From Desulfovibrionaceae bacterium (GTDB lineage Bacteria > Desulfobacterota > Desulfovibrionia > Desulfovibrionales > Desulfovibrionaceae): 64,000 nucleotides of DNA. Location: contig WSYE01000016.1 of the NCBI GenBank assembly GCA_009773665.1, forward strand, positions 1-64,000, given 5' to 3'. A program made the position numbers and the translations under genes. Positions within the stretch are counted from its first letter, which is position 1. The number at the start of each line of letters is the position of its first letter. The notes under the pieces were generated by a model that was not told where the DNA came from, made no database searches, and was given only the letters and a program-made list of their open reading frames with translations. This document shows, piece after piece, positions 36,963 through 45,597 of this stretch.

Positions 36963-37203
36963 GGCTCGCTCCTGCCGTGCAAACTAGCCTCAAGCGTGCA
37001 ATTAGTAAATCTTTTCGCCGGAGCGATGGCCCTCCTTGTCCTTCGAACCCTTTACGGTTACTAAGAACCTGCCCAAAGTCCGGAATTCCCGGCCTTTCGG
37101 GACCCAATCCCTTGACACATCCTGCCTCCCGCCGCATGTACATAGAATGTCGGCATAATCGTCCGAAGACGTAAGGGGGCGCTACTTGGAGCGGAGAGCG
37201 TCG

Positions 37204-38397
37204 ATGAAGACACCTGAAGTGGGAGACAAGAATAAGATCTTCCACAAGGGACAGGTCATCTACAAAGAGGGCCAGTCCAGCAACGAAGCCTACATCATAA
37301 AGCAAGGCGCCATTGGGCTCTATCGTCTCTCCGGCAACAAGCGCGTCAACCTGGGAATACTCCGTCCCGGACAAATTTTCGGCGAGATGGGCGTCATCAG
37401 CGAAGAGAAGCGCACCGCTTCCGCCGAGGCCCTGGAATATACCGAAGTCATCGTGCTGGACCAGAACCTCCTGCACACCCTGCTGCTCAAAAGCCCCCGC
37501 CCGGTCCAGATCATCACCTCCTACCTGGTGGAGCGCGTACGCGCGCTGAACGCCCGCGTGGCGGATCGGCCCTGTTCCAACACCTTCGCCTCGGTGTGCA
37601 GCGTGATGCTCCTGGCCTGGCGCGCCGCCACTAAGTCCACACCCAAGAGCGAGGCCGCGCAGATTTCCACGGTGGAGCTCTCCAAGACCATCAAGGAAAT
37701 CCTCCTGGTGTCCCAGGTGGAGATCGACGAGATTTTCGAAAAGCTGGCCAAGGTGCACGTCATCGACATCGTGGACATCAAGGGCAGCTACTACCGCAAG
37801 GACCCGCTGCTTGGCACCATGAAGAAGTCCAGCGACTTCGTGAAGGAGCGCCTGCTCACCATCCCCGACGCCGACCGCTTCGCGCGCGTGTCCAAGAACA
37901 TGGCCAAGGATCAGCAGGACATCTGCGGCACTGACCTGGAATTCATCGACCTGCACGAGTTCGCCAAGGAGATCCAGGCCCAGCCCGACGTCATCCTCAA
38001 GAAGCTGGCCTACGCAGAGATCCCCGAGAGCTCCTTCTTTTTCCATAAGGCGTCCATCATGTCCTACGCCGCGCAGAAAGGCCCCGAGTTCTTCCAGCGC
38101 GCCAAACGCCCGCGCCTGAAGATCGAGGATCTGCAATCCGTGGACGACATCACCGCCGTGGACAACACCACGCTGGAGGAGGCCCTCTCCAAGCTGGGCT
38201 TCTACAAGGTCTCGGTGCTTGCATCCCTGGCGGGTGAAGAGGCCCGCAACAAGATTTACGGCAACCTCTCCAAGAAGATCGCCGCAGTGGTCAAGGAAGA
38301 GGTCGCGAGGATGGACGGCCTGGATTCCGGCGAGGCGGCCGACATCGAAGAGGAACTGCTGAACATGATCAAAACCATGAAGGGGATTGCCGGGTGA
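37204..38397 (+). CDS. Cyclic-nucleotide-binding protein with FliG-like C-terminal domain
   Basis: 397 residues from ATG 37204, preceded by GGAGAG. The N-terminal domain (about 10-125) is a Crp/Fnr-type cyclic-nucleotide-binding fold (GQVIYKEGQSSNEAYIIKQG, PGQIFGEMGVISEEKRTAS). A helical middle part follows (about 130-290), without a clear DNA-binding helix-turn-helix. The last ~85 residues (DDITAVDNTTLEEALSKLG, then EEARNKIYGNLSKKIAAVVK) match the FliG C-terminal motif, where flagellar FliG has EExRxKIFxNMSxRAAxxLK. The gene overlaps motA by 4 bp (GTGA) and is followed by motB. A nucleotide-controlled rotor or clutch component is an attractive inference. Confidence 0.75.
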   Translation: MKTPEVGDKNKIFHKGQVIYKEGQSSNEAYIIKQGAIGLYRLSGNKRVNLGILRPGQIFGEMGVISEEKRTASAEALEYTEVIVLDQNLLHTLLLKSPRPVQIITSYLVERVRALNARVADRPCSNTFASVCSVMLLAWRAATKSTPKSEAAQISTVELSKTIKEILLVSQVEIDEIFEKLAKVHVIDIVDIKGSYYRKDPLLGTMKKSSDFVKERLLTIPDADRFARVSKNMAKDQQDICGTDLEFIDLHEFAKEIQAQPDVILKKLAYAEIPESSFFFHKASIMSYAAQKGPEFFQRAKRPRLKIEDLQSVDDITAVDNTTLEEALSKLGFYKVSVLASLAGEEARNKIYGNLSKKIAAVVKEEVARMDGLDSGEAADIEEELLNMIKTMKGIAG

Positions 38398-39173
38398 ACG
38401 TCGCCACGGTCATCGGTTTCGTTGCAGGCGTCATCATCCTGGGCACGGCCACGTATTTCGCCACGGACTCCGTGCGGGTGTTCATCAACCTGCCTGGCCT
38501 GGCCATCGTGCTGGGCGGCACCCTGGCCTCCACCTTCATCTGCTTCCCCCTGAAGGAAGTAACGCGCGTTTTCACCATCTTCCTCACGGCTCTGAAGCGC
38601 GAGGAATTGCCCATCGGCAACTACATCGAGTCCATCGTGCAGATAGCCCGCGAGGCCTCCGCGCGCGGCAAGGTGCACCTGGAGAGGGCGCTGCCCGGCA
38701 TCGAGAACGAATTCCTGCAGAACGCCCTGCAAATGCTGGTGGACGGCTATTCGCGCGACGAAATCAAGGAAATCCTGGAGACGCGCATCGAACAGACCTA
38801 CCAGCAGGAGATCTCCTCGGCAGGCATCTACCGCACCATGGCCAAGCTCTCGCCCGCTTACGGGCTCATCGGCACGCTCATCGGCTTCATCGGCCTGATG
38901 CAGGCCATGGGCGGAGGCGGGCTCGGGGCGCTGGGCCAGCACATGGCCGTGGCCCTGACCACCACGCTCTACGGCATCCTGCTCTCCAACCTGATCTTTC
39001 TGCCCATCGCCGTGAAGGTGGAGAAGCGCATCGAGGAGCGGGTGCTGCTCATGTGCGTCATCCGCGACGGCGTGCTCTTCATCAAGGACAAGGCCCCCGC
39101 GCCCATCGTCTACGACAAGCTCAAGGCCTACCTGCCGCCCCGCCGCTGGGCATCCATCGGCATACGGCCCTAG
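38394..39173 (+). CDS. motA: MotA/TolQ/ExbB-family stator proton channel
   Basis: 259 residues from GTG 38394, in a GTGA overlap with the upstream gene. Four membrane segments: residues about 4-25, 32-50, 150-172 and 183-205. The MotA signatures PGLAIVLGGTLASTFI and LSPAYGLIGTLIGFIGLMQAM are present, and the cytoplasmic loop has charged residues (LKREELP, AREASARGKVHLERALPGIEN). Together with MotB it forms a flagellar-type ion-driven stator. The rest of the flagellar regulon is not in the window. Confidence 0.92.
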   Translation: MNVATVIGFVAGVIILGTATYFATDSVRVFINLPGLAIVLGGTLASTFICFPLKEVTRVFTIFLTALKREELPIGNYIESIVQIAREASARGKVHLERALPGIENEFLQNALQMLVDGYSRDEIKEILETRIEQTYQQEISSAGIYRTMAKLSPAYGLIGTLIGFIGLMQAMGGGGLGALGQHMAVALTTTLYGILLSNLIFLPIAVKVEKRIEERVLLMCVIRDGVLFIKDKAPAPIVYDKLKAYLPPRRWASIGIRP

Positions 39174-39182
39174 AGCGCCGCC

Positions 39183-40049
39183 ATGCTCAAGCTCTCGCAA
39201 CTGCGCGGCAGGATAAAAGACGAAGACGAGGGGACGTGGTTCGTCTCGCTTGCGGACCTGCTGACCGTGTTGCTGTGCTTTTTCGTGCTGATGCTGTCGG
39301 TATCCAGCGTGGACCAGGAGCGCTACAAAAAGGTGGCGCAGTCCATGGAAGACGCCATGAAGACCGAAAAGGCCAAGCGAGAGCAGGCCCAGGCCCAGAT
39401 CAAGGCACAGGGCAAGCGGCTCGGGTCATCCCTGGGTGACGAGCTTCCCGCCGGGCCGGGCGGACAGGTTTATCCCGTGCTGCCGCCGTCCTTGCCGCCG
39501 CAGGTCTACCAGAGCGCTCCCTCGGGACAGGCCGGGCTCACCGCCCAGACCGGCCCCGGCCTTGGCGACCAGTCCGGACAGGCCACGCGCCCCAAATCGC
39601 TTGAAGAGATCGGCGCGGAACTGGGCATGCGCTTCGCCCAGGACCCGGCAGGCGTGCAGATCGAAAAACGCGAGGGTGGCTTCGCCATCACCCTCAAGGG
39701 CGCGGTGCTCTTCGACAGGGCCAGCGCCGAGCTTACCCCCTCCTCCATCCCCTACCTCGACTCCATTGCGGCCTCGCTGCGCAGCACCCCCTACAAGGTG
39801 ACCGTGGAAGGCCATACCGACAACCTCCCGATCCAGTCGCTCATCTATCCGTCCAACTGGGAACTTTCCGGCGCGCGGGCCTCGCGCGTGGCCCGCTACC
39901 TGATCGACCACGGCGTGGCCAAGGACCGCCTGCACGTGGCAGGATTCGCCGACACCCGCCCCGTGGCCCCCAACGACTCCGCCCAGGGCCAGCCCCTGGC
40001 GGAAAACCAGGCCCGCAACCGCCGCGTGGTCATACTGATAAACCCTTGA
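39183..40049 (+). CDS. motB: MotB-like stator protein with OmpA peptidoglycan-binding domain
   Basis: 288 residues. One membrane span (FVSLADLLTVLLCFFVLMLS) with the ion-binding aspartate in ADLLTVL, a plug/linker of about 100 residues rich in Pro, Gln and Gly, and an OmpA domain (about 165-288) with VEGHTDNLPI and NWELSGARASRVARYLID for peptidoglycan binding. It begins 9 bp after motA. The linker is longer than in E. coli MotB. Confidence 0.92.
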   Translation: MLKLSQLRGRIKDEDEGTWFVSLADLLTVLLCFFVLMLSVSSVDQERYKKVAQSMEDAMKTEKAKREQAQAQIKAQGKRLGSSLGDELPAGPGGQVYPVLPPSLPPQVYQSAPSGQAGLTAQTGPGLGDQSGQATRPKSLEEIGAELGMRFAQDPAGVQIEKREGGFAITLKGAVLFDRASAELTPSSIPYLDSIAASLRSTPYKVTVEGHTDNLPIQSLIYPSNWELSGARASRVARYLIDHGVAKDRLHVAGFADTRPVAPNDSAQGQPLAENQARNRRVVILINP

Positions 40050-40864
40050 CCAACGAAAGCGACACCCTGGACTGCGGCCGCGACGAGTCCTCCCACAAGC
40101 TCAAGGGAATCTTCTCGTCTCCTGCCATGCCCGGCGAAGAGCCTGATCCGGCCATCCCCAAGCGCTTTTGGTTCGCCAGGGAACTGGGCGAAGGGCTCAT
40201 CAGCATCCAGCTACTGGACGAGCACGGCCTGCCCACCCCCAAGCAGCACAGCATGCAGAAGGACCCCTTCCTCCAGGATTTCACCCTGGAGCCGGACTTG
40301 GGCTACCGCCTGCTGACCCAGCGGGTGCTCACCGGAGACTATTTCCGCAAGCAGGGCATGAACCTGGAAGCCAAGATCGAGTACCAGAAGGTGCTGCGCA
40401 TCGACGAGGAGAACATCCGGGGCAACTTCGGGCTGGGATTGACCTATCTGGCGCTCAACCAGCTGGAGAAGGGCCGCTACGCCTTCGAGAAGCTGGTCAG
40501 CATGGACGAGGCCTTCTCCGCCGAGCACAAGCACCTGTTCAACGACTTCGGCATCGCGCTTCGCAAGAAGGGGCTCTTCGACGAGGCCCTGGCCTTCTAC
40601 AACCGCGCCCGCGCGCTGTGCTCCAACGACGAAAACCTGCTCCTGAACATCGCCCGCGCCTGGTATGAAAAGGGCGACACCGAGAACGCCTACCGTGGGC
40701 TCGGCGACTGCATCGAACTCAATCCCGATTTCCGCGAGGCCCTGGCCTTTCTGGCCTACCTGCGCAAGCACCGCATCTTCCCCCACGACAAGGAGCTGCG
40801 CGCCCACTTCGACCGCGAGGCCCTGAAGCGTAGCGAGCTGGGGTCGCTGCTGGACGGGGCCTAG
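40046..40864 (+). CDS. TPR-repeat protein at the end of the motAB operon
   Basis: 272 residues from TTG 40046, in a TTGA overlap with the motB stop; the weak start makes the exact N-terminus uncertain. Tetratricopeptide repeats run from about 105 to 235 (AKIEYQKVLRIDEENIRGNF, GLGLTYLALNQLEKG, GIALRKKGLFDEALAFYNRA). No signal peptide. The N-terminal 70 residues are variable and contain RFWFARELGEG. Co-translated with motB, so probably a cytoplasmic partner or adaptor of this motor; no defined function. Confidence 0.8.
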   Translation: MTNESDTLDCGRDESSHKLKGIFSSPAMPGEEPDPAIPKRFWFARELGEGLISIQLLDEHGLPTPKQHSMQKDPFLQDFTLEPDLGYRLLTQRVLTGDYFRKQGMNLEAKIEYQKVLRIDEENIRGNFGLGLTYLALNQLEKGRYAFEKLVSMDEAFSAEHKHLFNDFGIALRKKGLFDEALAFYNRARALCSNDENLLLNIARAWYEKGDTENAYRGLGDCIELNPDFREALAFLAYLRKHRIFPHDKELRAHFDREALKRSELGSLLDGA

Positions 40865-43537: not shown

Positions 43538-43595
43538 TTCTATTCAAAACACCATGCGTTTGCCTTTCATATTAATAACAGCGAGGAGGCTATGT

Positions 43596-44327
43596 ATGAA
43601 ATCAGTATTACTTTCGTTACTCGTCACATTATTTTTGTCGACTTCTTCATGGGCAGCATTCGTTAACGGTGGATTTGAAACAGGGGACTTCACTGGTTGG
43701 ACGCTGACTGGATCGGGTGCGTACTTGTCTTCAGTGATAAACAACGCCACCCCCATGCTGTTTGGCCAAACAACAAACATTGCCCCATACTACGGGAGCA
43801 ATATGGCCCGTCTTCAGGATCTTGATGGATACTACCATCAAACAACTATCTCGCAATCATCAGTGCTCTCTGCTACGGATCTGACTGAAACCCTGTATGT
43901 TCGCTGGGGCGCACTTCTAATCGAACCAGAAGACGGCACGCACCCTACGGGTGCTCAGCCCGCATTTGACATCGTCATCCAGAAAAACGGAAGCCCCATC
44001 GATTCCTTCCATGCTGATGCGCTTAATAAGCAGGGTGGTGGCTGGGCGAATTATGGCGACCTGTGGGGTACGGCCTGGTACAAGACCGACCTGTACACCT
44101 ACTCCCTTTCCAACTTTAGCATAGGGGACACCATTACCGTAATGATGTCTGTCATCGACTGCGGCTGGGGCGGACACGGTGGAGCGGCATTCCTTGATGG
44201 CATCGGAACCACCCCCCTGCCCAACCCGGTCGCTGCTACTCCCGAACCCGGCACAATGATACTCATGGCCATCGGTGTGGCCGGTGCCGCATATCTCAAG
44301 CGCAGGAGAGACAGCGCCAAGGCTTAG
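43596..44327 (+). CDS. PEP-CTERM exported protein, jelly-roll-like
   Basis: 243 residues from ATG 43596, with GCGAGGAGGC just upstream; an earlier in-frame start would lengthen the signal peptide and has no ribosome site. A signal peptide (SVLLSLLVTLFLSTSSWA) leads to a beta-rich domain that opens with FVNGGFETGDFTGWTLTG, a common beginning of surface beta-sandwich proteins. The tail ATPEPGTMILMAIGVAGAAY with KRRRDSAKA is a PEP-CTERM signal for exosortase processing. Lower GC than its neighbours. A sigma-54-like promoter and a strong terminator make it a single-gene unit. Function probably at the cell surface or matrix. Confidence 0.85.
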   Translation: MKSVLLSLLVTLFLSTSSWAAFVNGGFETGDFTGWTLTGSGAYLSSVINNATPMLFGQTTNIAPYYGSNMARLQDLDGYYHQTTISQSSVLSATDLTETLYVRWGALLIEPEDGTHPTGAQPAFDIVIQKNGSPIDSFHADALNKQGGGWANYGDLWGTAWYKTDLYTYSLSNFSIGDTITVMMSVIDCGWGGHGGAAFLDGIGTTPLPNPVAATPEPGTMILMAIGVAGAAYLKRRRDSAKA

Positions 44328-44496: not shown

Positions 44497-45597
44497 CTAT
44501 ATATCCTGCATGCTGTCCAGCGTCCCGGTCGACGGCGGCCCGCCGGGCATCCCGGCCCCTTTGGGGGGCCTGAACTCCCTATTGAACAGCTTCAGGTGCA
44601 GCTTCAGTCCCTCGGCGAAGTTCGCGTTGATCCACAGCGCCTTTAAAAGCGCCTCCTGCGCGCCCTTCACGTCCCCCATGAAGAACTGGGCCTTGGCCAT
44701 ATTGAAGTGGATGTTCTCGTCATCCGGCGTCAGCTCCAGCGCCTGCCGGTAGGCGTGCAGCGCGCCGGGCAGGTCCCCGGCCTTTCTAAGCTTCACCCCA
44801 AGCGAGTTGAAGGGGTTGGGGCTGGCGGCGTCGTATTTGAGCACCTCGATGAACAGCTCCTTGGTCTCCTCCAGCCGGTTGAAGTGGGCGAAGGTCTCGG
44901 CAGCCATTTGCAGATAGGTCTTGTAGCCTTCCAGGTCGCCCTTGCCCTTGTAGGCCTCTGCCAGCCCTTTGTAGGCTTCCGCGAACAGCTCGTTTATCTT
45001 CACGGCCTTCTTGAAGGCGATGATGGCCTGGCCGTACTTCATTTTGACCAGGTACTTGCAGCCCATGTCGTAGTACTTCTGGGCCTGGTTGTCCTCGCTG
45101 ACCAGCTCCTCGAAGGTCTCAATGGCCTCGTCGAAACGGCCCGCAGCCAGCAGCCTGCGGCCTTCGTTCAGCTGGGCCTGCTCGATCTCCACAAGCCTGT
45201 CGATCTTCAGGGCGCGCAGCATGTGCCGCTGGAAGGTCTCCATGGAATAGGGGCGCAGCACGTAGCCGTCCACCCCGGCGGCGATGGCCTCCAGCACGCG
45301 CTCCTTCTGGCCCTCCTGGGTCACCATGACCACGGGGGTGTCCTTCAGGTTCATGTTCAGGCGCAAGAGTTTGAGGAATTTGAAGCCGTCCATATCTGTG
45401 AGCTGCGAGTCCAGCACCACAAGGTCAACTTCCTGCATACCCAGAAAGTCGATGGCCTCGGACCCGGAGGTGAACTGTTTGATCATGCCCGCCTTGAGCT
45501 GCTTCAGGCACTGACGGTCGCGGCGAACGTGTTCCTCCAGGCCGGAGACGACGGCCACCACATCCAGTCTGACGGGGGAAGAGATCGATTCCGACAC
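44497..45597 (-). CDS. Receiver-TPR response regulator
   Basis: 366 residues. The N-terminal receiver (about 10-130) has the phosphoacceptor Asp in VDLVVLDSQLTDMDG and the Lys/Thr switch region in VVMVTQEG; the usual DD pair at the start of the domain is poorly conserved (VVAVVSGLEEHV), so phosphorylation is not certain. Five or six TPR repeats follow (about 140-345). No DNA-binding output. It probably works through protein contacts, as in other REC-TPR proteins of Desulfovibrio. Single gene with its own terminator. Confidence 0.85.
   Translation of the reverse strand: MSESISSPVRLDVVAVVSGLEEHVRRDRQCLKQLKAGMIKQFTSGSEAIDFLGMQEVDLVVLDSQLTDMDGFKFLKLLRLNMNLKDTPVVMVTQEGQKERVLEAIAAGVDGYVLRPYSMETFQRHMLRALKIDRLVEIEQAQLNEGRRLLAAGRFDEAIETFEELVSEDNQAQKYYDMGCKYLVKMKYGQAIIAFKKAVKINELFAEAYKGLAEAYKGKGDLEGYKTYLQMAAETFAHFNRLEETKELFIEVLKYDAASPNPFNSLGVKLRKAGDLPGALHAYRQALELTPDDENIHFNMAKAQFFMGDVKGAQEALLKALWINANFAEGLKLHLKLFNREFRPPKGAGMPGGPPSTGTLDSMQDI

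Follow-up and report, generated by a model that had tools for sequence, protein, structure and literature searches.

A cyclic-nucleotide-binding protein with a FliG torque domain is encoded beside one type of MotA in Desulfovibrionaceae

In a 64,000-nucleotide stretch of Desulfovibrionaceae contig WSYE01000016.1 (the window), a gene that joins a cyclic nucleotide monophosphate (cNMP)-binding domain to the C-terminal torque domain of FliG stands at the head of a motAB operon. We propose, with evenly balanced confidence, that its product is a FliG mimic responsive to a nucleotide, which would bind the MotA encoded beside it and gate this stator by braking, holding or licensing it. A ligand-controlled FliG mimic most simply accounts for four features: the constant pairing of the fusion with its MotA, hosts that bear FliG, charges that are kept and rotor domains that are missing.

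The C-terminus of the fusion protein was analyzed by profile methods. The first-pass annotation had read it as a FliG C-domain pattern behind a Crp-type domain, and Pfam, a profile search of PDB and HHalign all agreed with this; the motif EEARNKIYGNLSKKIAAVVK was present in the C-terminus as claimed. The Pfam model FliG_C matched residues 312-392 with 27.1 bits (curated cut-off, 23.3 bits), and it matched all 18 homologues compared at E ≤ 1. A profile built from these 18 C-termini retrieved 11 PDB sequences at E ≤ 7e-4 (best 5e-14). Profile searches pointing to an unrelated helical fold had been set beforehand as the test of the assignment, and the 11 sequences were all FliG, while the next PDB match, which was unrelated, appeared only at E 0.56. 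In a profile-profile alignment, fusion residues 312-392 were paired with residues 234-314 of the FliG resident in the same genome without a gap over 81 residues (E 6e-7, probability 92). By sequence comparison, the C-terminus of the fusion is a FliG torque domain (PF01706), well beyond chance.

The distribution of the fusion was examined in 247 genomes of the order, with a match threshold of E ≤ 1e-20. The fusion was present in 61 of them, all belonging to Desulfovibrionaceae, and a close form of the operon MotA (58-100% identity, E ≤ 1.5e-94) was present in exactly 61 genomes. The two sets were identical, and in 61/61 genomes both genes were adjacent on the same contig and strand, their matches ranging from a 1-base overlap to 56 bases apart. 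Among the matches listed, the next MotAs fell to at most 39% identity (E 9e-44); all 36 family genomes searched held between 2 and 11 MotA/ExbB-type matches, ExbB and TolQ relatives included. At the 31 loci L003-L033, of which L004 is the window itself and L003 and L010 have identical fusions, motA followed the fusion in every case and motB lay within the sequence read in 30. The window fusion matched those of a same-genus relative (97% identity) and Fundidesulfovibrio agrisoli (72%). In the window, the translational coupling to motA that had been claimed was borne out, since the motA GTG overlaps the fusion TGA by 4 bp. The operon MotA and MotB gave MotA_ExbB, MotB_plug and OmpA matches, all above the Pfam cut-offs.

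A version of the fusion with 24% identity was found ahead of motA and motB on Burkholderiaceae replicons. Eight plasmid or megaplasmid records held a homologue of the Paraburkholderia form, and motA and motB followed the fusion in all six that were read, with the same results for two of them, Caballeronia SBC1 and SBC2. In one annotated record the fusion is named 'cyclic nucleotide-binding domain-containing protein', stands beside 'flagellar motor protein' and 'OmpA family protein', and is preceded by a chemoreceptor gene. A phylum-wide profile search of 395 genomes gave matches in at least 181; outside the family, the matches listed ended by position 216 of the 402 model positions and thus covered the cNMP domain and the adjoining part only. 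When 26 loci from this search (L040-L065) were re-scored with our own profile, a full-length distant homologue was found in three f11 genomes, and further full-length relatives may exist elsewhere in the phylum. Another candidate, L059 (a 407-amino-acid frame, L069), had the cNMP domain and no FliG_C match at E ≤ 1, and was rejected as a relative.

MotA R90 with FliG D289, and MotA E98 with FliG R281, interact genetically according to PMC4030992, from which these positions were taken; they were placed on the FliG and MotA of the window genome by sequence reading. The charge table comprised 35 motAB-linked rows, 34 of them distinct. For the remaining FliG positions we use K264, D288 and R297, which we take to be their names. 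In the window fusion, R281 corresponds to K358, D288 to E365 and D289 to E366. Among the linked rows, K at the R281 position, an acidic residue at the D288 position and E at the D289 position were each found in 33/35. Among 17 representatives sharing less than 70% identity, 15, 15 and 16 retained the charge sign at these three torque-helix positions. In contrast to FliG, the K264 position was neutral in all 35 rows and the R297 position acidic in 34. The first-pass annotation had also suggested that torque might be altered because the DDR of flagellar FliG is DNT here. The residues are indeed D320-N321-T322, and in the linked rows this position reads D in 35/35, then N in 29/35 and A in 26/35. 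However, the argument for a torque defect is not supported in that form, because the DDR position lies outside the torque helix, and the residues tied to MotA, R281 and D289, are kept.

The partner surface of MotA was also compared. Like MotAB/PomAB stators, the operon MotA keeps E98 (33/33 linked rows) and the operon MotB keeps the plug aspartate. In contrast, the linked MotA has serine at the R90 position in 30/33 rows and a basic residue at -6 from E98, two places nearer than R90, in 30/33, whereas R stood at -8 in 12/12 hand-picked paralogous MotAs; it also has two extra residues after E98 in comparison with 11 of these 12. The Desulfovibrionaceae MotA and the FliG mimic may thus have drifted jointly away from the flagellar pair.

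FliG_N is the FliF-binding domain of FliG, and FliG_M, with its EHPQ motif, is the FliM-binding one. The window protein gave just 14.2 bits with FliG_N (cut-off 25), located inside the C-terminal domain, and no match with FliG_M at E ≤ 1; in one of the 18 homologues the C-terminal part gave a FliG_M match (E 0.044). Neither EHPQ nor the MFVF of FliG was found in the fusion, LQSV standing in place of the latter. Since the rotor-building domains are absent, the fusion is no rotor subunit of a known kind. Of the roles first suggested, clutch, brake or alternative rotor, a clutch or brake fits the 61/61 pairing, whereas an alternative rotor in the known sense finds no support. FliG_M was also looked for in the carriers themselves: it matched in 61/61 Desulfovibrionaceae carriers and in two of the three f11 carriers (63/64 overall), and the window genome, whose assembly is 66% complete, encodes a separate ordinary FliG (142.5 bits). 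FliG_M was present in 227 of the 247 order genomes, and the fusion occurred in none of the 20 without it (hypergeometric P = 0.003, which assumes independent genomes and ignores kinship).

The sensor domain was compared in the same 35 rows. In the phosphate-binding cassette, Gly60 and Glu61 were conserved in 35/35 and Arg70 in 32/35, and a class III cyclase domain was found in 33 of the 35 carriers searched (of 61). Because the cassette is kept and such cyclases are present, cyclic AMP (cAMP) would be a reasonable ligand, and most likely the one used. The fusion resembles CRP/FNR regulators in its cNMP-binding fold and cassette; it differs in having a FliG tail and no DNA-binding domain above cut-off, and the NCBIfam CRP model scored 31 bits on it against a cut-off of 266. 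YcgR, according to PMC12713396, works under nucleotide control where MotA meets FliG, and this PilZ brake is alike only in the role proposed here; the fusion differs in that it imitates FliG and is encoded with one stator. The window protein gave no PilZ match at E ≤ 1. The idea that the fusion replaces YcgR was dropped, as PilZNR proteins were present in 32 of the 35 carriers searched.

Our favoured mechanism would run as follows. The CRP-like domain, probably a dimer, would sense a cyclic nucleotide, most likely cAMP, and the FliG torque domain would mimic the rotor surface and dock on MotA, its co-translated partner, at the cytoplasmic loop. Docking may use charge pairs, with the R281-like K facing MotA E98 and the D289-like E facing the shifted Arg/Lys of MotA. 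The ligand state would then set whether MotAB is kept idle or braked, or is freed to the true flagellar FliG ring, the sign of this control being presumed.

Several observations weigh against this mechanism. Of 90 columns, fifteen show the same charge sign across 15 or more of the 17 representatives, the three torque-helix positions among them, so this conservation is not unique. The two Burkholderiaceae fusions tabulated carry T or A in place of R281, W in place of D288 and V in place of D289, in an alignment that may be shifted, and these fusions do not clearly keep the torque-helix charges; FliG_C fell below its cut-off in two whole-protein scans from this group (17.3 and 18.4 bits), and likewise in the second copy at L102 (18.6 bits). 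Co-occurrence with FliG is weak evidence, since FliG_M is so widespread in the order, and no FliG_M match was obtained from one f11 carrier, whose assembly is 79% complete. In L029, L030 and L031 the cassette Arg is replaced by Phe (PFHAN), and the ligand of this sensor may be changed or lost. Structure models were poor: AlphaFold2 with a two-sequence alignment gave a predicted local distance difference test (pLDDT) score of 37.7 for the full protein, which is unusable; the C-terminal 93 residues modelled alone scored 67. With the latter model Foldseek returned nothing from PDB at E ≤ 0.001, and VIA-align placed FliG 1lkv at rank 48 (Z 4.2 over 55 residues) among unrelated helical proteins; the models carry no weight in the verdict on the FliG assignment.

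The copies that lack motAB also count against a stator-specific role. More than one fusion match was found in 15 of the 16 g14 carriers and in genome G206, some second matches being one gene in two pieces. Six extra copies at three g14 loci form tandem pairs, possibly of heterodimer partners, with no motA or motB in the 15 kb read, and the three f11 homologues (420 amino acids) had none in the 10-14 kb read, so the fusion protein can exist without motAB. The seven extra copies, that of G206 included, have K at the R281 position and an acidic residue at the D289 position (7/7 each). In favour of the mechanism, however, only one of the six that lie apart from motAB is acidic at the D288 position; the copy adjoining motAB is acidic there as well. 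The f11 homologues, one of which was scanned and gave 46 bits with FliG_C, have Q at R281, D and E at D288 and D289, and K at K264 (3/3).

The main rival, which we consider unlikely, is a self-contained non-flagellar or side-branch motor in which MotAB drives the FliG-like domain of a fusion dimer or oligomer and the cNMP part links other cargo. In its favour, two bacterial groups that are far apart share the fusion-motA-motB module, and the linked MotAs have diverged at the rotor-contact residue R90, which the paralogues examined retain; but the fusion is missing from the order genomes without FliG_M, and Pfam recognized no ring- or filament-forming domain in it. Moreover, the homologue of f11 genome G287 lies about 7 kb from the true fliG, and that of G322 shares a contig with a FliG_M match. 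It is very unlikely that the FliG-like domain is instead incorporated in the C-ring and gives its special MotAB a matched track, that is, a ligand-switched gear; the charge pattern and the gapless alignment would suit such a part, whereas a protein without FliG_N, FliG_M and EHPQ, and with LQSV for MFVF, has no known route into the ring.

A role as a CRP-type transcription factor that acts on the operon or on flagellar genes, with the FliG-like tail as an accessory sensor of stator state, seems quite improbable. The N-terminus is CRP-like and the middle region gave weak winged-helix-like hints (MntR, E 0.1; HTH_17, E 0.012 in L040; and, short of its cut-off, SAMD1_WH in the second L102 copy, E 0.0012), but among 18 members no DNA-binding family matched this region at cut-off, and the region was not named a DNA-binding domain. 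The putative recognition helix, read by eye, is acidic (VEIDEIFEKL), and CRP-like sites were found in 0 of 34 upstream regions. Least probable of all is a chaperone or localisation factor that serves its own MotAB constitutively and whose cNMP domain no longer binds a ligand: the overlap or close spacing with motA and the loss of the cassette Arg in 3/35 rows agree with it, and the almost complete conservation of the cassette does not.

The same 34 upstream regions, which include the window twice (as itself and as L004), were scanned for promoters. Sigma-28-like sites with up to 3 mismatches were present in six, against a shuffle mean of 5, which is no excess; L030 and L035 had one with just one mismatch. 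Sigma-54 sites were found in 0/34, and a sigma-70 scan found none. Within a scan allowing 2 mismatches, three of the six Burkholderiaceae records had a one-mismatch sigma-28-like site 106-114 bp upstream of the fusion (L035 at 9512; L124 and L126 at 4887), two of them being the same sequence. Such a site arose in 12 to 18 of 500 shuffles per sequence, and these sites, which may be called suggestive, were not used as evidence.

The features of the operon and of the other loci are listed in the table. The fusion reading frame begins at an ATG, a longer alternative start being the TTG at 37186. The gene for the tetratricopeptide repeat (TPR) protein after motB was confined to some genera; behind the operon of L003, positions 12167-11883 match this protein with 32% identity. 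Further along the window, a small exported protein whose tail resembles PEP-CTERM (43554-44327) and a receiver-like plus TPR protein (44497-45597, minus strand) were read by eye, as were CheA- and CheB-like frames near the G287 copy.

Table. Positions of the fusion gene, its operon partners and the additional copies (window coordinates unless a locus is given)
Feature	Location	Strand	Remarks
Fusion gene (cNMP-binding domain, middle region, FliG torque domain)	37204..38397 including stop	+	397 aa; coding 37204-38394
cNMP-binding domain, residues 13-95	37240..37488	+	Pfam PF00027, E 1.9e-20; Gly60, Glu61 and Arg70 of phosphate cassette present
Middle region, residues 120-304	37561..38115	+	no family matched significantly; hints of a winged-helix-like fold, all weak
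FliG C-terminal (torque) domain, residues 312-392	38137..38379	+	torque-helix charges K358, E365, E366
motA	38394..39173	+	GTG start, 4-bp overlap with fusion stop; distinctive type, S at R90 position
motB	39183..40049	+	plug-region Asp (SLADLL); OmpA peptidoglycan-binding domain
TPR protein gene	40046..40864	+	optional; downstream of motB in 3/8 wide Desulfovibrionaceae loci examined
Tandem cNMP-FliG fusion pairs without motAB, g14	L100 6521-8830; L103 5986-8361; L104 6148-8576		
Second fusion copy behind motB of linked operon, G206	L102 7139-9169		677-aa open frame
Distant cNMP-FliG homologues, f11	L066 4843-6102; L067 3728-4987; L068 6443-7702		

A literature search limited to open-licence papers found no description of a cNMP-FliG fusion, and the part of PMC9389320 that was available makes no mention of one. 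The nucleotide-responsive FliG mimic may have a wider and somewhat unlikely form, an unrecognised control of ion-driven motors of the MotAB type in which a cyclic-nucleotide-gated mimic evolved with a private stator as its own switchable rotor surface, possibly turning an object other than the C-ring. Bacteria often have more than one MotAB-type stator, and to our knowledge what selects among them is for the most part not understood. If our reading is true, stator choice would become directly testable in these bacteria, in a sensor that has the stator-binding surface of the rotor and is inherited together with just one type of stator. Cyclic-nucleotide signalling would then be tied to torque by protein contact rather than by transcription, and the FliG torque domain would be in use outside the rotor.

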